A stretch of DNA of 25,659 nt. Source: an uncultured bacterium. GTDB lineage: Bacteria > CALINM01. The stretch's first letter is position 1, and each line of letters opens with the position of its first letter. Below are positions 5,171 through 15,179 of the stretch, piece after piece. The stretch lies in assembly GCA_938045315.1 (NCBI GenBank), contig CALINM010000104.1:1-25659 (forward strand), given 5' to 3'. The notes under the pieces are model-generated. The model did not search any database and was not told where the DNA came from. It worked only from the letters and a program-made list of their open reading frames with translations. Both the position numbers and the translations under genes were made by a program.

Positions 5171-5186
5171 TGGCATATAAATTGCT
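5171..5186 (+). promoter_or_regulatory. Sigma-54 (RpoN) -24/-12 promoter of the hydG-E-F-regulator operon
   Basis: The 16 bases read TGGCAT-ATAAA-TTGCT, against a consensus of TGGCAC-N5-TTGC[AT]. The invariant GG (5172-5173) and GC (5184-5185) are exactly ten bases apart. Transcription would start near 5197, leaving a leader of about 109 nt before hydG. The fourth gene of the operon encodes a sigma-54 activator, which suggests autoactivation. I saw no clear copy of the palindromic enhancer found upstream of the [NiFe] operon, only an imperfect TGTAACAATTA at 5090-5100. Confidence 0.82.
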
Positions 5187-5221
5187 TATACTATATTGCA
5201 TACTTTCTCCCTCCCCAGAGT

Positions 5222-5255
5222 AAGGGGGTCCCCTCCCCCCTTCTCCCCCTTTTTT
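5222..5255 (+). terminator. GC-rich hairpin with T-run in the hydG leader (possible attenuator)
   Basis: AAGGGGG (5222-5228) can pair with CCCCCTT (5245-5251) across a C-rich 16-base loop, and a further T-run follows. This sits between the sigma-54 start (about 5197) and hydG. The shape resembles an intrinsic terminator, but the loop is large and alternative G-C pairings exist, so it may instead be an attenuator or simply an unusual C-rich leader. Confidence 0.35.
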
Positions 5256-5305
5256 AAGCTTTTAAAACAAAAGAAGTTGATTTTTTTTCTTCTGATGTGT
5301 AATCT

Positions 5306-6631
5306 ATGGTTTACACTATTATGATTGATAGAACTAAAATAGATGAGATATTATCAAGAGCAGAAAAGCTCGAAGGGCTGTGTAAAGAAGATGTTACATA
5401 TCTTCTTAATTCTTACAGTAATAAATTAAAAGAAAGAATTTTTTATTTAGCGAAGGAAATTAAAGAAAGGATATACGGTAAAAGGATAGTTTTATTTGCA
5501 CCATTATATGTTTCCAATTATTGTCAAAATGAGTGCTTATATTGTGGTTTTCACAAAAATAATAAATCACTAAAAAGAAGTAGATTAACTATAGAATCCT
5601 TAAAAAAAGAAGTAGAGATTTTGATTAATGAAGGTGTTAAAAGAATTTTGCTGGTCTCTTCTGAGGATCCATCAATCAATGTTGATAAATTATGTGAGTT
5701 TATAGAGTCTATTTATTCATTAAAAAATTTGAAAGGTTCTATAAGAAGAGTTAATATTAACGTGGCACCTCTTAGTGTTGAAGAATTTAGAAAACTTAAA
5801 TTAGCTAATATAGGTACATATCAGGTTTTTCAGGAAACTTATAATCAAAGCAAATATAAAATTTATCACCTTTCGGGGCCCAAGAGTGATTTCAGGTATA
5901 GGTATGAAGCTCCTTTTAGAGCATTAGAAGCAGGAATTGATGATATAGGCCTGGGTGTTCTATTCGGGTTAGATGATCCAGTAATGGAGATTAGAGGGCT
6001 ATTAACACATATAGATGAAATGAAAAAAATATATGGTGTGGGACCTCATACAATTTCTATTCCCAGGTTAAAATATGCTAAAGGGGCTGATTTATCTTAT
6101 AACCCTCCTTACCCTATTGATGATGAGTTTTTTTGTTATATTGTAGCTATTTTAAGAATTGCAGTGCCCTATACGGGTATTATACTCTCAACAAGAGAAG
6201 ATAGGTATTTACGAGATAAATTAATAGAATTAGGTGTATCACAGATAAGTGCAGGATCTTCTACAACTCCTGGTGGTTATTTGAATAAAGCTAATGAGGG
6301 TGAGCAGTTTTCTACTTCTGATCATCGTTCTTTAAAAGAAATTGTTTTAAACTTAGTTGAAAGAGGTTATATCCCCAGTTTTTGTACAGCATGTTACAGG
6401 AAGGGTAGAACTGGCGAAGTATTCATGGAACTTGCTTCAGATGGAAGGATTAGAAGTTTTTGTGACAAAAACGCTATTCTTAGTTTTGCTGAATACATGG
6501 CTAATTTTGGAGAAGATAGAAAAGGGGAATTAAAAATAAAACTTGAAGAAATATTGGTTAATTTTTCAAATGACTTTCTTAAAGAAAAAATAGACAAAAT
6601 TTTCTCTGGCGAAAAGGATATCTATATATAA
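5306..6631 (+). CDS. hydG: [FeFe]-hydrogenase maturase HydG (radical SAM tyrosine lyase)
   Basis: HydG cleaves tyrosine to p-cresol and dehydroglycine, which yields the CO and cyanide ligands of the [FeFe] H-cluster. The 441-aa protein has the radical-SAM motif C73-x3-C77-x2-C80 (CQNECLYC). It also has the second-cluster motif C360-x2-C363-x22-C386, which separates HydG from its ThiH relatives. Internal family sequence includes GVGPHTISIPRLKYA. The ATG at 5306 gives a family-like N-terminus; ATG 5321 is equally possible, and neither has a good ribosome site. It is the first gene after the sigma-54 promoter, and its TAA directly abuts the ATG of hydE. Confidence 0.97.
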   Translation: MVYTIMIDRTKIDEILSRAEKLEGLCKEDVTYLLNSYSNKLKERIFYLAKEIKERIYGKRIVLFAPLYVSNYCQNECLYCGFHKNNKSLKRSRLTIESLKKEVEILINEGVKRILLVSSEDPSINVDKLCEFIESIYSLKNLKGSIRRVNINVAPLSVEEFRKLKLANIGTYQVFQETYNQSKYKIYHLSGPKSDFRYRYEAPFRALEAGIDDIGLGVLFGLDDPVMEIRGLLTHIDEMKKIYGVGPHTISIPRLKYAKGADLSYNPPYPIDDEFFCYIVAILRIAVPYTGIILSTREDRYLRDKLIELGVSQISAGSSTTPGGYLNKANEGEQFSTSDHRSLKEIVLNLVERGYIPSFCTACYRKGRTGEVFMELASDGRIRSFCDKNAILSFAEYMANFGEDRKGELKIKLEEILVNFSNDFLKEKIDKIFSGEKDIYI

Positions 6632-7660
6632 ATGGATAAAAGGGAATGCATAAAATATTTAAATAGTGGAACGTACGATATTGAAATTAATAATAGGGCT
6701 CTATCTCAGAAAGAGGCTATTTATGGGAAAGAGATTTTTTTAAGGGGAATTATTGAATTTTCAAACTTTTGTAGGAAAAATTGTTTGTATTGTGGAATCA
6801 GAAAAGATAATAAATTATTAAAAAGATATAGAATGAGTATTGATGATATTCTTAACAGAGTGGAACAAATTATTAGAAGTGGAATTAAAACCGTTGTTCT
6901 TCAATCTGGTGAAGATACATTTTATTCTCGAGATTTAATATGTGAGATTATAAAGAAAATAAAAAAGAGATTTGATGTTGCGATAACTCTTTGTATTGGT
7001 GAGAGGGGGGTCGATGAGTATAAAGCATTTTATGATGCAGGTGCCAGTAGATTTTTAATAAAACATGAAACGTCTAACGAAAAAGTCTATGAAAAACTTC
7101 ATCCCGGTGAAACCCTTAAAGGGAGACTAAAGTTAATTGAAAATTTAAAAACAATAGGCTTCCAAGTGGGGTCTGGGAATATAGTGGGGCTGCCCTTTAC
7201 AACAACTATTGATTATATAAATGATATTTTTTTGATAAAAAGTTTAGATTTAGACATGGCTGGAATTGGTCCATTTATGCCCGCAGAAAATACTCCATTG
7301 AAAAATTTTATGAGCCCCAGTGTAATAACAGTAATAAAGTTACTTGCGCTTGCAAGAATAGTGTTAAAAGATGTGAATATCCCAGCTACTACCGCTCTAT
7401 TTTCCTTAGGAGGAGCTGATGCACTTAAAAGTGCTATTGATGTGGGCGCAAATGTTTTGATGCCTAATTTTACTGGTGATAATTTTAGAAAAAATTATAG
7501 GATTTATGACAGTAAAAAACCACTGGATATGACAATTATCAGTGAGCTAATTGAGAAAAAAGGGCTAGTATTTTCAAACTCTAAAGGTGAAAGGAGAAAA
7601 ATTTATGTTAGAAACAATGAAATCGGAGAGAAAAAGAGTCACTTTTGTTGGGAGAACTAA
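6632..7660 (+). CDS. hydE: [FeFe]-hydrogenase maturase HydE (radical SAM)
   Basis: HydE is a radical-SAM enzyme involved in forming the dithiolate-bridged diiron precursor of the H-cluster. The 342-aa protein has C47-x3-C51-x2-C54 (CRKNCLYC), followed by family segments such as VVLQSGEDTFY, GLPFTTTIDYI and NVLMPNFTGDN. The optional C-terminal [2Fe-2S] cysteines found in some HydE proteins are absent here: the region reads NYRIYDSKKPLDM. The ATG follows the hydG stop without a gap. The 3' end overlaps hydF by 56 bases in another frame, so the last 18 codons are shared. Confidence 0.96.
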   Translation: MDKRECIKYLNSGTYDIEINNRALSQKEAIYGKEIFLRGIIEFSNFCRKNCLYCGIRKDNKLLKRYRMSIDDILNRVEQIIRSGIKTVVLQSGEDTFYSRDLICEIIKKIKKRFDVAITLCIGERGVDEYKAFYDAGASRFLIKHETSNEKVYEKLHPGETLKGRLKLIENLKTIGFQVGSGNIVGLPFTTTIDYINDIFLIKSLDLDMAGIGPFMPAENTPLKNFMSPSVITVIKLLALARIVLKDVNIPATTALFSLGGADALKSAIDVGANVLMPNFTGDNFRKNYRIYDSKKPLDMTIISELIEKKGLVFSNSKGERRKIYVRNNEIGEKKSHFCWEN

Positions 7661-8792
7661 TGTGGGTAAATCAAGTCTTGTTAATGCACTGCTTGAACAG
7701 GATCTATCAATAGTGTCTCCAATCCCCGGTACAACAACAGATCCCACAGAAAAAGCAATAGAAATTCTTCCTGCAGGCCCCCTTCTATTTACTGATACAG
7801 CCGGCATTGATGATTGCTCTCCTCTTGGCATCAAGAGGGTAGAGAGGGTAAAAAAAATTTTAAAAAAAACCGATTTTATGGTGATAGTTATTGCCCCTCC
7901 CTTTGATGATTTCAAGTATGAAATTGAACTTTTGAAAGAAAGTGAAAAAAATAGTATTCCCTCAGTTGTTGTAGTTAATAAGATAGATACATTTAAAGCC
8001 AGGGATTTTGATTATAGCCCATTTGGTAATGTAGATTTATTGTTCGTTTCAGCAAGAACTAAAGAGGGTTTAAATAAACTCAAAGAATATATAGGTAATG
8101 TTCTTGCAGATAGTTGCAATAAAGGTATTCTTGATGGTATTGTAAAGGAAAATGATCACGTCCTCATAATTATACCTGTTCACCATGCCTATCCAAAGGG
8201 CAGAATGAAACCTCTTCAAGTACAAATTTTTAGAGAAATTTTAGATAAAAATGCAAGTTTTACCGTTGTAAAACCGAATTTGCTAAACAGAAATTATATA
8301 GAAAGTTTAAATCCCAGTCTAATAATAATTGATTCTCAGATAATTAAAGAGACTAAAGATGTAATCCCCGAGCGTATTCCCGTTACGAGTTTTTCAATCT
8401 TACTTGCAAAATATAAAGCAAATTTAGAAGCTCTAGTAGAATCGAGCAAAAAAATTGAAAACTTACAGGAGGGTGATAAAGTCGCCATTATTGAAGCCTG
8501 TACACACCATAAGCTTGAAGGTGATATGGGCAGAGAGGTGATTCCAGAATTGATAAAAAAAATAACAAATAAAAAACTAAATTTCGTATTTTTCTCAGGT
8601 GTGCACCAGGATTTTAAAGAAATTGAAGGTGTAAGGTTTGCATTACACTGTGGTGGTTGCATGTTAACAGAGAGGGATATGAAAAGCAGACAAAAATATT
8701 TTGCGAGTAAAAACATTCCATTCACTAATTATGGAGTTTTTTTAGCCAATTACCATGGTGTACTGAGTAAATTTACTGAAAATCTTAAATAA
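7605..8792 (+). CDS. hydF: [FeFe]-hydrogenase maturation GTPase HydF
   Basis: HydF is the GTPase scaffold on which the diiron subcluster is assembled before transfer to the hydrogenase. From the ATG at 7605 the protein is 395 aa. The G1 P-loop GRTNVGKSS (residues 16-24), the G3-like DTAGI and the NKID box give the GTPase domain. C-terminal C299-T-H301 together with H348-C349-G-G-C352 matches the HydF cluster motif C-x-H...H-C-x-x-C. I chose 7605 because GGAG lies 8 bases upstream; an in-frame GTG at 7587 would overlap that ribosome site. The regulator gene follows after 10 bases. Confidence 0.96.
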
Positions 8793-8802
8793 AAGGAATT
8801 GT

Positions 8803-11070
8803 ATGATCGTTCAAACAAAAGAAGGATTATGTAAAAAGTGTTATTCCTGTATTAGAGGATGTCCTGTAAAGGCAATAAAAGTTCAGAATGATCAGGCCTT
8901 TGTGTTGAAAGAAAATTGTATATCCTGTGGAAACTGCATAAAACTATGCTCTCAGGATGCTAAAGAAGTCAAGGAAGGAGTATCTATCCATAAGATTGCT
9001 CAAAATTTTAAAACTAAGATAGCTATATTAGCACCATCGTTTGTTTCATATTATACAGAAGTTCATCCTTTGCAGATTGTTGCTGCTTTAAGAAAATTGG
9101 GATTTAACTATGTTTATGAAACTGCTTATGGTGCTGAGCTTGTAGCTGAAGGTTACAGGAATTTTTTAAACAAGGTCATTGAAGAAAAATCAGAAAGAAC
9201 ATATATTTCTTCAGCATGTCCCGCAATAGTTAATCTTATATGTAAGTATTATCCGGAATTTATTCAAAATTTAGTTGATATAGTATCACCAATGGTTGCG
9301 ATGGGAAGATTTTTAAAGGAGAAATTTAAAGAAGCTCATATTACTTTTATTGGACCCTGCGTTGCGAAGAAATCTGAAATTGAAGATAACTTTAGTCATA
9401 ATTACATAGATAATGTATGGACCTTTAAAGAACTTGATAATTATTTTCTTGAGTTAAATATTGATCCCAAGAGAAAAAATTTTTCAGATTTTGATGGATA
9501 CTTCCCCAGAGTGGGGAGAGCTTTTGCTTTGTCAGGAGGTCTATTAAAAACAGCATCTATAGGCTTTGATATTTTAGAGACCGACATTATTGTTGTAGAT
9601 GGTAAAGATGAAGTGTTAAATTTTTTTGAAGCTTTAAAAAGTGGGAAAATAAATCCAAAATTTGTTGATATGCTATTTTGCAAAGGATGTATTGATGGTC
9701 CAATAATGCAGAACAAGGGCAGTCTACAAGAAAGAGTACAAAAAATTGTCAGTTATGTTAAAAACTATTATTTTCAATCGATTGGAGAGGATTACTCACC
9801 TCCAAAAATAGGATTAACAAGAGAGTTTTCAAGAAAAGATAGGCTAATTTTTTTAGAACCAAGAGAAGAAGAGATAAAAAGTGTTCTTGATGAAATGAAA
9901 ATATATAATGGTGGAGAAAACCTAAATTGTGGGGCCTGTGGATATGAAAATTGTTATGAAAAAGCGAAAGCAGTTGTGATTGGATTAGCAGAAATAGAGA
10001 TGTGTTTACCTTATCTTTTGAATAAAATGTCTGTTAACAACCAGACATTACTTCAAGATTATCAAGTGATACAGAAAGAGTTGTATAAAGATAAAGATTT
10101 CGGTTTTATTTTAGGTAAAACACACAAAATGAGAGAAATCTGGGAACAGATTGAAAAGGTTGCTCCTACAAGTACAACAGTTTTATTAAGAGGTGAAAGT
10201 GGAACGGGGAAAGAGATGCTCGCAATACTTATTCACCAGAGATCAAACAGGAAAAATAAACCAATGATAACTGTCAACTGCACAACCTTAAATGAAAATT
10301 TATTAGAAAGTGAGCTGTTTGGACATGTAAAGGGTGCTTTTACTGGTGCTACAGAAAACAAAAAAGGACTTTTTGAGGCAGCAAATAATGGGACGATATT
10401 TCTCGATGAGATTGGAGACATGCCAATTAATTTGCAAACCAAGCTTCTTAGAGTTTTACAAAATGGTGAAATCAGGGCTATTGGAAGCACTGAAGTTAAA
10501 AAAGTTGATGTTAGAGTTATAGCAGCTACAAATAGAAATTTAGAAGAACTTATTAGAGAAGGGAAATTCAGAGAAGATCTTTATTACAGGTTAAATGTTT
10601 TTACCATAACACTTCCTCCTTTAAGGGAGAGAAAAGATGATATACCATACTTTTTGCACCATCTGATAGAGAATGCGTCTAAAAAAATTGGCAAAAAAGT
10701 TAAAAGTGTAGAGAAAGAAGTGATAAGGTACCTTAAAGCATATCACTGGCCGGGTAATATAAGGGAATTGGCTAATGTGGTTGAAAGGGCAGTGATACTT
10801 GCTCAGGGAGAAGAATTAAAATTAAAAGATTTTCCCCTCTATATTCAAAATACATCACCAGAGGTAGAGATAATACCTCTGAATAAAAACATGTGGGATT
10901 TGAGAGAAGAGCACCTTAACCAGTTTGAAAAAAATCTAATAAAAAAATATCTTAAACAAGCTATGGGCAATGTAAAAAAAGCTGCTGAACTTGCAGGCAT
11001 ACCAAGACCTACATTCCACAATCTTATGAAAAAACACAATATTAAAAGAGCTGACATATTCCGCCAGTAG
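8803..11070 (+). CDS. [FeFe]-hydrogenase-like sensor fused to a sigma-54 activator
   Basis: The 755-aa cytoplasmic protein has, in order: a two-cluster ferredoxin (C10/13/16/20 and C39/42/45/49), an [FeFe]-hydrogenase H domain (about 65-330), a small Fe-S domain (C376-x2-C379-x4-C384-x16-C401), an AAA+ sigma-54 domain (Walker A GESGTGK 464-470, GAFTGA 511-516, Walker B IFLDEIG) and a Fis-type HTH (723-747). H-cluster loops are altered. L1 is SSACP with Ala138 where catalytic enzymes have the proton-relay Cys. L2 is GPCVAKKSE (Gly for Met). L3 is FCKGC, one residue shorter than the usual C-x3-C. All four cluster cysteines remain (139, 186, 293, 296). There is no receiver or PAS domain. I infer an H2- or redox-responsive one-component activator of its own operon and the [NiFe] operon. 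It could instead bind only a [4Fe-4S] cluster and sense redox state. Confidence 0.93.
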
Positions 11071-11092
11071 GATTTAATATTGTGTTATTTTT

Positions 11093-11119
11093 TAATTACA
11101 CTGTAATTAGTGCATTACA
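11093..11119 (+). promoter_or_regulatory. Palindromic enhancer candidate for the sigma-54 activator
   Basis: TAATTACA-C-TGTAATTA (11093-11109) is a perfect 17-base palindrome. Its right half, TGTAAT (11102-11107), also pairs with a third half-site, ATTACA (11114-11119), across a 6-base spacer. The three alternating half-sites lie about 55-80 bases upstream of the -24 element, a normal place for an activator binding site. They begin 23 bases after the stop codon of the sigma-54 activator gene. Binding is inferred. Confidence 0.6.
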
Positions 11120-11171
11120 TATATTTTGAGCCATTGGTTTATAACTTACTGAAATTAAAATACTCTTTTTA

Positions 11172-11187
11172 AGGCACACCCTTTGAT
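11172..11187 (+). promoter_or_regulatory. Sigma-54 (RpoN) promoter of the [NiFe] hydrogenase operon
   Basis: The bases read AGGCAC-ACCCT-TTGAT. The -24 GGCAC is perfect, and the -12 element is TTGA rather than TTGC, with the correct ten-base spacing between GG (11173-11174) and GA (11185-11186). Transcription would start near 11198, with a leader of about 31 nt that contains a strong GGGAGGT ribosome site. The -12 mismatch lowers certainty, but the adjacent enhancer palindrome and activator gene raise it. Confidence 0.7.
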
Positions 11188-11228
11188 ATTGTGAAATTTA
11201 AAAGTTCATACAAGGGAGGTATGTCCAG

Positions 11229-12293
11229 ATGAGATTGACGCGAAGGGATTTTATTAAAGCAGCAGGAGGACTTGGTGCTGCATTATTAACGTCTCCTTTT
11301 CTAAGTAAGGTTGCAGAAGCTATAGAGAGGGAGAAAAAAAATTTTCCTGTTATATGGATACAGGGACAAACAGATGCAGGGTGTTCGGAATCTATCCTTA
11401 ATACAGTTCAACCTACAGTAGTTGATATGGTAACTGACATCATGTCTTTAAGATTCCACCAGACTATTATGGCAGCATCCGGTCATCAATGCATAAGTGT
11501 ATTACATGAAGCATTGAAGAGTGATGAAAAATTTATTCTTGTTGTGGAAGGGTCTGTACCTACAAAGGATGAGGGGGTATATTGTACGATAGGAGAAGAT
11601 GAAAATGGTAGGCCCATTACGTTTCTTAAATGGGTGAAAGAATTGGGTGAGAAAGCGATGTATGTTGTTGCAATTGGTACCTGTGCCACGTGGGGTGGAA
11701 TTCCAGCAGCAGAACCAAATCCAACAGGTGCAAAACCAGTAACGGAAATAATAGATCCTAAAAAAGTAATAAATCTTCCTGGATGCCCTGCAAGACCTCA
11801 TCATTTAGTTGGTGTTCTTGCCCATTTAAAACTTTTTGGCCTGCCAGAATTAGATAGTAAAAGAAGGCCAATGGTATTTTTCTCAAGACTTATTCATGAT
11901 AATTGTGAGATGAGACCATTTTTTGAAAAAGGTGATTTTGCAAAGAGTTTCGGTGAGAAAAAATGTATGTATCTTCTTGGTTGCAAAGGACCAATTACAT
12001 ATAATGACTGTCCAAATTATCAGTGGAATTCTGGTTTGAACTGGCCTATAAGGGGTGGGTCACCATGCATTGGATGTGCAGCGGAAAGCTTTATTGGTTC
12101 TACGGGTAATGGGATTTACATGAGATTACCTGAGGCTAAGGTGCCAGGTATTCCCGGTTTGAAGGTAAAAGCAGATAAGTTTGGGACAATTGTTGGAGCT
12201 GCAACAATTGGAGGTATTATTGCCCATGCGATGGGAAGAGTTCTTGCACATAAAAAGAAAAAAGAAGAAAAAAAAGTTGAGGAGGAAAGATAA
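11229..12293 (+). CDS. hyaA: Group 1 [NiFe] uptake hydrogenase small subunit, Tat-exported
   Basis: The 354-aa subunit relays electrons from the NiFe site through three Fe-S clusters. The N-terminus TRRDFIKAAGG is a twin-arginine signal. GTCATWGG, LPGCPARP, the IHDNC His/Cys pair, CMYLLGCKGP and SPCIGC are cluster ligand motifs. The proximal motif is unusual: T-D49-A-G-C52-S-E-S, where most relatives have C-x-x-C-S-E-S, so Asp49 replaces the first cysteine. The C-terminus has a hydrophobic segment (IVGAATIGGIIAHAMGRVLA) followed by a Lys/Glu tail, consistent with a membrane anchor. The ATG at 11229 follows GGGAGGT by 8 bases. The stop overlaps the large-subunit ATG (TAATG). Confidence 0.96.
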   Translation: MRLTRRDFIKAAGGLGAALLTSPFLSKVAEAIEREKKNFPVIWIQGQTDAGCSESILNTVQPTVVDMVTDIMSLRFHQTIMAASGHQCISVLHEALKSDEKFILVVEGSVPTKDEGVYCTIGEDENGRPITFLKWVKELGEKAMYVVAIGTCATWGGIPAAEPNPTGAKPVTEIIDPKKVINLPGCPARPHHLVGVLAHLKLFGLPELDSKRRPMVFFSRLIHDNCEMRPFFEKGDFAKSFGEKKCMYLLGCKGPITYNDCPNYQWNSGLNWPIRGGSPCIGCAAESFIGSTGNGIYMRLPEAKVPGIPGLKVKADKFGTIVGAATIGGIIAHAMGRVLAHKKKKEEKKVEEER

Positions 12294-13852
12294 TGGCTAA
12301 GAAAGTTGTTATAGATCCAATAACACGTATAGAGGGACATTATTCAATTGAGATTGAAGTTGAAAATGGAAAAATTAAAGATGCCTGGGCAAGGGGTGAT
12401 ATGTTTAGAGGATGGGAGATCATCTTAAAGGAAAGAGATCCTCAGGATGCAATTAATGTAACTCAACGTATTTGTGGTGTTTGTCCCGTTGCCCATGCTA
12501 TGGCATCTGCCAGAGCATTAGATGCTGCTTTTCATATAGTACCACCAGATAATGGAAGAATAATTAGAAACTTAATTGCTGCTGGTAATTTATTACATTC
12601 TCACATACTTCATTTTTATAATCTTGTTGCATTAGACTATGTTGATATTACAGCTATTCTTGATTACAAAGGTAATGATCCAACGATGAATAATATCAAG
12701 GAATGGGTAAAAAATGAAGTAAAGAGTGGACGTAATACTGCGGCAGCTCCATTTTTGCCAAGATATAAAGGTGATTACATTAAAGATAAAGATCTGAATC
12801 TAACTGCCATTAATCATTATGTTAAAGCCTTTGAGATGGCAAGAACAGCACAGGAGATGATTGCTATTTGGGGAGGTAAAATGCCACATGTAACGGGTAT
12901 TGTTCCAGGTGGTGTAGCAGAGAATGTGACAGCTGAAAAAATAGCATCATATTTGTATAGACTGAGAAAAATTAAAGATTTTATCGATACATGTTATATT
13001 CCAGACGTAACTGCTGTTGCTAAAGCTTATCCCCGGTGGTTTAAAATTGGTGCCGGGTATAAAAACCTTCTTGCCTATGGTATTTTTGAATTAAATAATG
13101 AGGGTACACAGACATATCACATACCAGGAGCTTTTATTGATGGTAAATTAGAAAATCTTGACCAAAAAAATATTAAAGAAGAAGTTTTTTATGCTAAGTA
13201 TTCTTCACCAACAGGATTACATCCCTTTGAAGGGGAAACAGTACCTGATCCCAATAAGCCAAATGCCTATACCTGGGTTAAAGCTCCAAGGTATAGTTCA
13301 AAGCCTATGGAAGTTGGACCTTTAGCCAGAATGGTTATAACACATGTATCGGGAAAAAGATCAGAGGTTTCTAATTTAGTAAGAGATACTTTAAAATCCT
13401 TAGGTCTTGATGTGAGTGCTCTTTTCTCAGTTCTTGGTAGGCATGCTTGCAGGGCTTTAGAATTAAAAATTATTGCCGATGAAGCAGAAAAATGGCTTTT
13501 AGAACTAAAACCCGATCAACCGGTTAATACTAAATACGAAGTACCTAAAGAAAGTGAAGGATTTGGTCTTACAGAAGCACAAAGAGGAGCTCTTGGGCAC
13601 TGGATAAAGATAAAAGATCATAAGATTGAGAGGTATCAGTGTGTGGTTCCTTCAACCTGGAACTGCGGGCCAAGAGATGATAAGGGTATAAGGGGTGTTA
13701 TAGAAGAAGCTTTGATAGGAACACCAATAGCTGATCCTGAGAATCCCATAGAAGCTGTTCGTGTTGTTCGTTCCTTTGATCCCTGTCTTGCCTGTGCAAT
13801 ACATGTAATCGATCCCAAAACAAATGAAATTAGAAAGTTTAAAGTTGCATAG
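12293..13852 (+). CDS. hyaB: Group 1 [NiFe] hydrogenase large subunit
   Basis: This is the catalytic subunit, which splits H2 at the Ni-Fe centre on the outer side of the membrane. The 519-aa precursor has N-terminal active-site cysteines in RIC61GVC64PVAHAMAS and C-terminal ligands in DPC498LAC501AIH504. The 15 residues after His504 (VIDPKTNEIRKFKVA) are the expected tail removed by a maturation protease such as the one encoded at 14442. There is no signal peptide, in keeping with co-export on the small subunit's Tat signal. The protein is somewhat shorter than many group 1 large subunits. GGAGG precedes the ATG within the small-subunit gene. The cytochrome b gene begins 9 bases after the stop. 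Confidence 0.97.
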   Translation: MAKKVVIDPITRIEGHYSIEIEVENGKIKDAWARGDMFRGWEIILKERDPQDAINVTQRICGVCPVAHAMASARALDAAFHIVPPDNGRIIRNLIAAGNLLHSHILHFYNLVALDYVDITAILDYKGNDPTMNNIKEWVKNEVKSGRNTAAAPFLPRYKGDYIKDKDLNLTAINHYVKAFEMARTAQEMIAIWGGKMPHVTGIVPGGVAENVTAEKIASYLYRLRKIKDFIDTCYIPDVTAVAKAYPRWFKIGAGYKNLLAYGIFELNNEGTQTYHIPGAFIDGKLENLDQKNIKEEVFYAKYSSPTGLHPFEGETVPDPNKPNAYTWVKAPRYSSKPMEVGPLARMVITHVSGKRSEVSNLVRDTLKSLGLDVSALFSVLGRHACRALELKIIADEAEKWLLELKPDQPVNTKYEVPKESEGFGLTEAQRGALGHWIKIKDHKIERYQCVVPSTWNCGPRDDKGIRGVIEEALIGTPIADPENPIEAVRVVRSFDPCLACAIHVIDPKTNEIRKFKVA

Positions 13853-13861
13853 GGAGGGCAT

Positions 13862-14458
13862 ATGAAGGAGTATAGACATCCCCTATTTCCAAGATTAACT
13901 CACTGGTTACATGCCCTTTGTATGGTCATGCTTGTCCTTACTGGGCTTCATATTCACTGGCCTGAATGGTTGCCAGTGTTTGGAAGTATCTCCATGGCAA
14001 GATATATTCATTTTATATTTGCATGGTTGATTATTTGGTGCTACGTTGCAAGGGGCTATTATTATTTTTCTGTATCCAAAAAATATCGCGATATAATTTT
14101 CAGGTTTTCCGATATACCTGGTTTTTTTAAACTACTTAAATATTATTTATTTGGTATTTTTACGCATGCTCCTAAACCAAAATTTGGCAAGTACAACCCG
14201 GGTCAAAAACTGGCTTATTCAGTCTGGCCTATAGTATTCATCCCCCAATTCCTTACTGGATTTGCATTGTATGAACCTGAAATATTTTCCTTTGTTGTTG
14301 ACTGGTTTTCTGGTTTAGGCTATGTACGTTTCTGGCATTTTATTTTGACTATTTTTTATTCAATTTCTCTTATGGCGCATCTATACTTGGGAACTACAGG
14401 GGCAACAATTTTTGACTATTATATAGGTATGATTACGGGATATGAAGAAGCAAAATAA
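13862..14458 (+). CDS. hyaC: Hydrogenase cytochrome b subunit (HyaC/cytochrome b561-like)
   Basis: The 198-aa integral membrane protein has four likely helices, near residues 16-35, 46-68, 118-138 and 156-178. Candidate heme ligands are H14/H17, H50, H159 and H173, in contexts such as RLTHWLHA and RFWHFILT typical of Ni-hydrogenase cytochrome b proteins. It would anchor the hydrogenase and pass electrons from the small subunit to the quinone pool. A GGAGGG ribosome site lies just before the ATG. Its 3' end overlaps the protease gene by 17 bases. Confidence 0.9.
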   Translation: MKEYRHPLFPRLTHWLHALCMVMLVLTGLHIHWPEWLPVFGSISMARYIHFIFAWLIIWCYVARGYYYFSVSKKYRDIIFRFSDIPGFFKLLKYYLFGIFTHAPKPKFGKYNPGQKLAYSVWPIVFIPQFLTGFALYEPEIFSFVVDWFSGLGYVRFWHFILTIFYSISLMAHLYLGTTGATIFDYYIGMITGYEEAK

Positions 14459-14906
14459 GCTTGCTATTGTTGGAATTGGAAATGAACTTTGTAAGGATGA
14501 TGGGTTTGGAATTTTCGTTATAAAGAAGTTGAGGGAATTAAATTTTAATTTAGGCACACTCATTGAGGGAGGCACACTGGGGCTTTCCCTCATTCCCCTT
14601 TTTTTTGAAAATGAAAAAATTATTTTCTTGGACATTATCAAGAGTAATGATAAACCAGGCTCTATATACGTTGTCCCCTTAGATGAACTAAGTTTTATAA
14701 AGACCCAGTATATATCTTTTCATGATATTGCTCTTGAAGATGTTTATATGAAAGCTAGAATGTTAGGGTCAAAAGCTACTGGATATTTAATTGGTATTGT
14801 GCCACAAGATTATTATGGCTTTGGCGAAATTACTGATGTTTTAAGATCGAAGACAGATATATTCATAAAACAGGTAATCCAGTTATCGGAGAAATTATTA
14901 ATTTAG
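14442..14906 (+). CDS. hyaD: [NiFe] hydrogenase maturation endopeptidase (HyaD/HybD family)
   Basis: The 154-aa protease removes the large-subunit C-terminal tail after nickel insertion. The N-terminal GIGNELCKDDGFG matches the family G-x-G-N-x-L-x-x-D-[ED]-G-x-G. An Asp in IFLDIIKS and a His in ISFHDIALEDV are at the expected places for the other nickel-sensing ligands. The ATG lies within the end of the cytochrome b gene, with only a weak GGGA upstream, so coupling is probable. It is the last gene of the hydrogenase operon; the next promoter begins immediately after its stop. Confidence 0.94.
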   Translation: MKKQNKLAIVGIGNELCKDDGFGIFVIKKLRELNFNLGTLIEGGTLGLSLIPLFFENEKIIFLDIIKSNDKPGSIYVVPLDELSFIKTQYISFHDIALEDVYMKARMLGSKATGYLIGIVPQDYYGFGEITDVLRSKTDIFIKQVIQLSEKLLI

Positions 14907-14936: not shown

Positions 14937-14949
14937 AAAGTAAATTGAT

Positions 14950-15118
14950 AATCATGGGGTGTTAAGGGAATCCTGTGAAGCCGTAAGGCAAATCAGGAGC
15001 GGCCCCGCCGCTGTGAGTGCAGACGAAAGCTCCATTTTATGCCACTGTCTCGCTAAATGAGATGGGAAGGCGGAGCAAGTAGGATGAAGCACGAGCCAGA
15101 AGACCTACCCCATTGATT
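14950..15118 (+). ncRNA. Cobalamin (B12) riboswitch aptamer
   Basis: Conserved aptamer segments appear in order: GTTAAGGGAATCC, AGGAGCGGCCCCGCCGCTGT, GCCACTGTC, GGGAAGG and the B12-box-like GAGCCAGAAGACCTACC. The closing P1 stem is visible as AATC-ATGGGGT (14950-14960) pairing with ACCCCAT-T-GATT (15107-15118), with one bulged base. The aptamer precedes cobalamin synthesis and cobalt uptake genes, so excess adenosyl- or methylcobalamin is expected to turn the operon off through the terminator at 15174. Confidence 0.95.
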
Positions 15119-15120
15119 TA

Positions 15121-15179
15121 TACCCAGAGCTTTCTCGAGGGAGAAAGAGGGTAAAGTTAGCTATTGTATAACTAAACCC
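15121..15179 (+). promoter_or_regulatory. Riboswitch expression platform: competing hairpin and antiterminator
   Basis: Two exclusive pairings share GGGT at 15149-15152. In hairpin A, TACCC (15121-15125) plus CTTTCTC (15130-15136) pair with GAGAAAG (15141-15147) and GGGTA (15149-15153). In the antiterminator, GGGTAAAGTTA (15149-15159) pairs with TAACTAAACCC (15169-15179), with an AA/AA internal mismatch. The ACCC used here is part of the terminator's left arm. Hairpin A would therefore free the terminator, and the antiterminator would block it. Confidence 0.6.

Follow-up and report, generated by a model that had tools for sequence, protein, structure and literature searches.

An [FeFe] H-domain sigma-54 activator encoded with hydGEF and a [NiFe] uptake hydrogenase: a candidate one-component hydrogen-sensing regulon

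The window, that is, the whole 25.7-kb stretch of DNA analysed here, is contig C104 of a 1.86-Mb MAG (244 contigs, 92% complete). The cluster under study in this window contains the following genes.

5321 to 6631, forward strand: hydG, H-cluster radical SAM maturase (TIGR03955, 475 bits, cut-off 312)
6632 to 7660, forward strand: hydE, H-cluster radical SAM maturase (TIGR03956, 308 bits, cut-off 255)
7605 to 8792, forward strand: hydF, H-cluster maturation GTPase (TIGR03918, 417 bits, cut-off 326)
8803 to 11070, forward strand: regulator of 755 aa, Fer4 - [FeFe] H-domain - FeS - sigma-54 AAA+ - Fis HTH (Pfam, ligand table)
11229 to 12293, forward strand: [NiFe] hydrogenase small subunit with Tat signal (TIGR00391, PF14720, TIGR01409)
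12293 to 13852, forward strand: [NiFe] hydrogenase large subunit (PF00374; NF033181, 708 bits)
13862 to 14458, forward strand: hydrogenase b-type cytochrome (PF01292; TIGR02125 under its cut-off)
14442 to 14906, forward strand: hydrogenase maturation protease (TIGR00072)

The gene order given in the original prediction, hydG-hydE-hydF-regulator followed by a periplasmic [NiFe] uptake-hydrogenase operon, was borne out. HydE, HydF and HydG all scored above the curated cut-offs and retain their cluster-binding cysteines, and the radical SAM CX3CX2C motif is present in HydE and HydG. The hydG ORF opens at 5306, and 5321 is the probable start favoured by the starts in relatives; the end of hydF and the start of the regulator are separated by 10 bp. 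No catalytic [FeFe] hydrogenase is encoded within the 25.7-kb window, which agrees with the earlier claim as far as the window goes, but its own MAG has a canonical HydABC. Just past the [NiFe] operon, a cobalamin riboswitch (RF00174, 96 bits; 14940 to 15126) precedes a cobD-cbiB-cobB-cbiX-cbiC-cbiM operon and is partly conserved in the related genome SKW176; it was the sole match in the Rfam scan.

In the Pfam analysis, the regulator showed two Fer4 motifs, Fe_hyd_lg_C, an FeS domain, Sigma54_activat and HTH_8, and no PAS domain was found in it. The AAA+ domain (PF00158, E 1.7e-73) has Walker A/B and the GAFTGA loop, and together with the Fis HTH (PF02954) these features mark the protein as a sigma-54 enhancer-binding protein. 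In the H-domain, all four H-cluster cysteines (C139, C186, C293 and C296) and the [2Fe] pocket residues K189 and E192 are retained, and the L3 spacing is CxxC rather than CxxxC, as is also found in the kinase-type relatives analysed. The proton-transfer Cys (C299 position) and the Met at 353 are both lost (SSACP and GPC), and changes at these two positions are a sensory-type pattern (PMC10055695). The C-terminal FeS motif Cx2Cx4Cx16C (C376, C379, C384 and C401; PF04060) has likewise been described (PMC8163306). With the cysteines and pocket, the loss of C299 and M353, and the C-terminal motif, the regulator has the sequence features of a sensory [FeFe] hydrogenase (group C/D).

A profile of the regulator H-domain picked up similar sensors in numerous genomes beyond the phylum, and those tested were mostly of the kinase, PAS or chemotaxis type; at L103 (8081 to 10303), the H-domain is joined to the signalling domain of a methyl-accepting chemotaxis protein (HydDB C2 type). 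Of 45 genomes checked for Fe_hyd_lg_C and HydF, 12 encode such sensors while lacking both HydF and catalytic HydA. Scoring of the PCxxKxxE Lys and Glu, which form part of the [2Fe] pocket, in 51 sensors showed both residues intact in 35 of the 37 whose genomes encode HydF or catalytic HydA versus 3 of the 14 whose genomes encode neither (Fisher p 5e-7, an optimistic value since the sequences are non-independent). The regulators of the window, SKW176 and a second related genome, SKW305, all belong to the intact-pocket class. Five further genomes (G080, G351, G081, G146 and G301), two of which share one genus and are 99% complete, have a strong catalytic HydA with HydF not found at E 1e-45; either an assembly gap or divergent maturation may account for this.

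These comparisons also bear on whether the regulator could lack an H-cluster and act as a redox or Fe-S sensor, with hydGEF acting for another protein. Such a role is suggested by the sigma-54- and kinase-fused H-domain proteins whose genomes lack both HydF and catalytic HydA (G310, G110, G187, G274 and others), but we consider it very unlikely here, given that those proteins mostly lack the pocket Lys/Glu, both of which the window regulator has, and that this regulator is apparently co-transcribed with maturases for which the relatives encode no other obvious client. The only other sigma-54-fused H-domain regulators found, those of G310 (L076, 8618 to 10894, adjoining chemotaxis genes) and G110 (L097, 6755 to 9037), have the same domain order as the window regulator, but both have lost the pocket Lys that the latter keeps. 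Since their genomes also lack HydF and catalytic HydA, a sigma-54-fused H-domain alone need not mean H2 sensing. For the window regulator, the intact pocket and the adjoining maturases suggest that H2 is sensed, and we infer that its H-domain carries an H-cluster in vivo with H2 as the signal.

The phylum was sampled with three genomes, the own MAG (G000), SKW176 (G001) and SKW305 (G002), all of which are fragmented MAGs (84-92% complete); a contig scan beyond the own MAG gave matches in SKW176 and SKW305 only. The check for a canonical HydA called for by the original prediction gave a split result, as the enzyme is present in the own MAG and was not found in either relative. In the own MAG, contig C182 (L031, 1 to 5096; 5.1 kb) encodes HydB, HydA, a TM1266-like protein, a second HydG and the start of HydE, and this HydA has the canonical motifs TSCCP, MPCTAKKYE and EVMACPGGC. 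In SKW176 and SKW305, the regulator is the sole Fe_hyd_lg_C protein. HydG and HydE were found in both of these genomes and HydF in SKW176, and a gap between contigs C136 and C106 of SKW305 sits at the expected hydF position. A constant association of catalytic hydA with the cluster, which had been named as evidence against the prediction, was thus seen in 0 of the 2 relatives. The whole gene order is kept in SKW176 (patatin-sprT-hydGEF / regulator-[NiFe]-cob, broken across two contigs within hydF), whereas the [NiFe] operon of SKW305 is on C154 and not behind the regulator. A third 'HydG' per genome (C40, C70 and C44) proved to be ThiH, which in G000 lies beside thiG- and thiD-like genes.

The presence of C182 in the same assembly raises the alternative that the maturases chiefly serve the catalytic HydABC, with the regulator as a co-user. 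The window HydF is the sole HydF found in this assembly, and HydABC could thus be a further client of the window maturases. However, C182 brings its own hydG/hydE, and HydABC is missing in both relatives, where the regulator and the maturases persist. In addition, this 5-kb contig is a composition outlier (tetranucleotide correlation with the rest of the MAG 0.62 versus 0.79-0.93 for 24 of the 25 other pieces) and may be misbinned or recently acquired, a matter that 5 kb of composition cannot decide. We therefore regard this alternative as unlikely. That the maturases serve the regulator's sensor, as originally proposed, is most likely in view of the relatives that have the regulator and maturases but no HydA, although the HydABC of the own MAG weighs on the other side. 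A comparable arrangement was found in G027 (L079, 20 to 7385), where a response regulator, an H-domain kinase, hydE, hydG and hydF are encoded and no Fe_hyd_lg_C protein besides the sensor was detected in a MAG rated 100% complete. Judged by its genes, this locus is an independent kinase-type, two-component parallel to the window cluster.

The regions upstream of the two operons contain the following elements.

5171 to 5186, forward strand: sigma-54 (-24/-12) promoter TGGCATATAAATTGCT upstream of hydG, present in G000, G001 and G002
5195 to 5258, forward strand: 64-bp block from the predicted sigma-54 start site (~5197) to a T-run, identical in SKW176
11172 to 11187, forward strand: weak sigma-54-like element AGGCACACCCTTTGAT before the [NiFe] operon, at the same position in G001 (TGGCACAACCTTTGAT)

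The statement that both operons have sigma-54 promoters held firmly for hydG and poorly for the [NiFe] operon. Using the pattern TGGCAYN5TTGCW, 13, 11 and 13 matches were obtained in the three phylum genomes versus 0 in the reversed control, which shows that this group has genuine sigma-54 promoters; many of the matches sit directly before genes, including the hydG site in 3 of 3 genomes. In contrast, the [NiFe] element reads GG-N10-GA and thus lacks the -12 GC of the GG-N10-GC pattern, and it is one of 18 equal-score sites in the window, a non-significant score; what speaks for it is solely its position, 57 bp from the ATG in both G000 and G001. Sigma-70-like hexamers before hydG (TTGATT-17-TAATCT and its counterparts) were rejected, as they have low scores and overlap with a palindrome described below, and sigma-70-like matches in the region were no commoner than in shuffles.

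No exact match with SKW176 in the compared cluster is longer than the 64-bp block; second comes a 35-bp stretch of coding DNA. The 64-bp block is C-rich, with a hairpin, a T-run and an anti-Shine-Dalgarno-like 5' end, and it had no Rfam match; in SKW305 the layout of the leader is kept with a different hairpin. The block is possibly a small RNA or an attenuator leader. The hyb and cbiM start regions ranked high as predicted pairing partners of the candidate small RNA, but this was discarded as evidence, since the rank came mainly from their strong Shine-Dalgarno sequences. Because a terminator-like block lies between the promoter and hydG, transcripts from the sigma-54 promoter need not simply continue into the gene, which makes the proposed positive feedback uncertain. 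It is conceivable, if rather doubtful, that the one-component [FeFe] sensor relies solely on its own operon for maturation and that, via sigma-54, it also controls a ~60-nt C-rich small RNA (5195 to 5258) in front of that operon. If this is true, H2 would set [NiFe] transcription plus an RNA-level output.

A 20-bp palindrome, GTGTAA-N8-TTACAC, occurs in five copies with at least 10 of 12 matching positions in the 25.7-kb window, all of them inside the cluster.

5297 to 5316, forward strand: palindrome, 12/12, at the hydG start (SKW176 12/12, SKW305 10/12)
5380 to 5399, forward strand: palindrome, 11/12, inside hydG (SKW305 12/12, SKW176 10/12)
8629 to 8648, forward strand: palindrome, 12/12, at the hydF 3' end, 155 bp before the regulator (SKW176 12/12)
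11082 to 11101, forward strand: palindrome, 11/12, UAS-like, upstream of the [NiFe] operon (SKW176 12/12)
11101 to 11120, forward strand: weaker palindrome, 10/12, adjoining the 11082 copy (SKW176 9/12)

Four sites with at least 11/12 were observed in the window versus 0.07 expected, and five with at least 10/12 versus 1.1 expected (at least five being reached in 1 of 100 shuffles); these figures are somewhat overstated, as the hydG and hyb sites had served to define the motif. It is the conservation in relatives that counts as independent support. The 8629 copy opens a 28-bp exact match with SKW176, in a part where the protein is also conserved. Before the [NiFe] operon, the -24/-12-like element follows the palindrome starts at 70-90 bp (90/89 bp for the first copy), and enhancer sites typically lie at such a distance upstream of -24/-12. 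Relative to the sigma-54 promoter of hydG, the palindromes there begin ~125 and ~210 bp downstream, the first of them over the start-codon region, a placement that also makes positive feedback less certain.

An overlap with the start codon is common for repressor sites, and the palindromes might therefore belong to another regulator (e.g. CRP/FNR- or GntR-like), leaving the H-domain regulator with other targets. This seems quite unlikely, considering that every window site falls within the cluster, that the tandem pair is at enhancer distance, and that the H-domain protein is the sole transcription regulator in the cluster. We infer instead that the H-domain regulator binds these palindromes. 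The earlier claim that it controls both operons gains from the palindrome common to both, but the [NiFe] promoter is weak and the [NiFe] operon is non-adjacent in SKW305; taken together, one regulator probably controls both.

On balance, we consider it reasonably probable, from the sequence evidence, that the cluster is a one-component hydrogen-sensing regulon in which a self-matured H-domain regulator acts on its own operon and on the [NiFe] operon. HydG, HydE and HydF would assemble an H-cluster within the regulator's own H-domain, and H2 would shift the redox state of this H-cluster as well as that of the relay clusters and of the C-terminal FeS cluster. The latter would be coupled straight to the sigma-54 AAA+ domain, without PAS or kinase. 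The regulator would bind GTGTAA-N8-TTACAC both at its own operon and ahead of the [NiFe] operon and in this way adjust the two; the effect on the uptake hydrogenase would likely be activation, and autoregulation may be positive or negative.

Sensory [FeFe] hydrogenases of groups C/D (TmHydS, TamHydS) are already known (PMC10055695, PMC8163306; HydDB C1-C3, PMC5037454). Like these sensors, the window regulator has two N-terminal Fer4 clusters, a C-terminal Cx2Cx4Cx16C motif, Ala/Pro at the C299 position, an altered M353, and intact H-cluster cysteines and pocket. Unlike them, its output is a same-chain sigma-54 AAA+ domain rather than PAS, kinase, chemotaxis or phosphatase modules, its L3 is CxxC, and it stands beside its own hydGEF and a [NiFe] operon rather than a group A [FeFe] enzyme. 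A Fer4-Fe_hyd_lg_C-FeS input has also been reported for sigma-54 enhancer-binding proteins of Clostridiales (PMC6615313, Fig. 2a), and the domain list given there is that of the window regulator. The part of that paper dealing with them gives no function, maturases or target, whereas the window cluster unites maturases, a probable target operon and a candidate operator.

In a different design, the HupUV/HoxBC regulatory [NiFe] hydrogenases with HoxJ/HoxA (HydDB group 2b) link an H2 sensor through a sigma-54-type activator to a [NiFe] uptake hydrogenase. The window cluster resembles this system in its hydrogenase-like sensor, sigma-54-type activator and putative [NiFe] uptake-hydrogenase target. 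However, where HupUV/HoxBC employs a [NiFe] sensor, a kinase and a response regulator, the window has one protein with an [FeFe] sensor domain, and a [NiFe] sensor, kinase and response regulator of the HupUV/HoxBC-HoxJ-HoxA type are absent from the cluster. In the open-access literature we found no report of such an activator packed with maturases and a [NiFe] target, which does not prove that none exists.

For the 'sensory' [FeFe] hydrogenases, H2 sensing is still termed putative (PMC8924675, PMC8163306), partly because the sensors often adjoin catalytic enzymes that use common maturases. This cluster brings the maturases together with the sensor, its activator domain and the putative operator and target, in genomes seemingly without a catalytic [FeFe] enzyme, which would make a clean test possible, that is, H-cluster on/off versus target on/off in a single protein and without a kinase cascade. 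The cluster would tie [FeFe] chemistry to the control of a [NiFe] enzyme, and it may offer a compact H2 biosensor.
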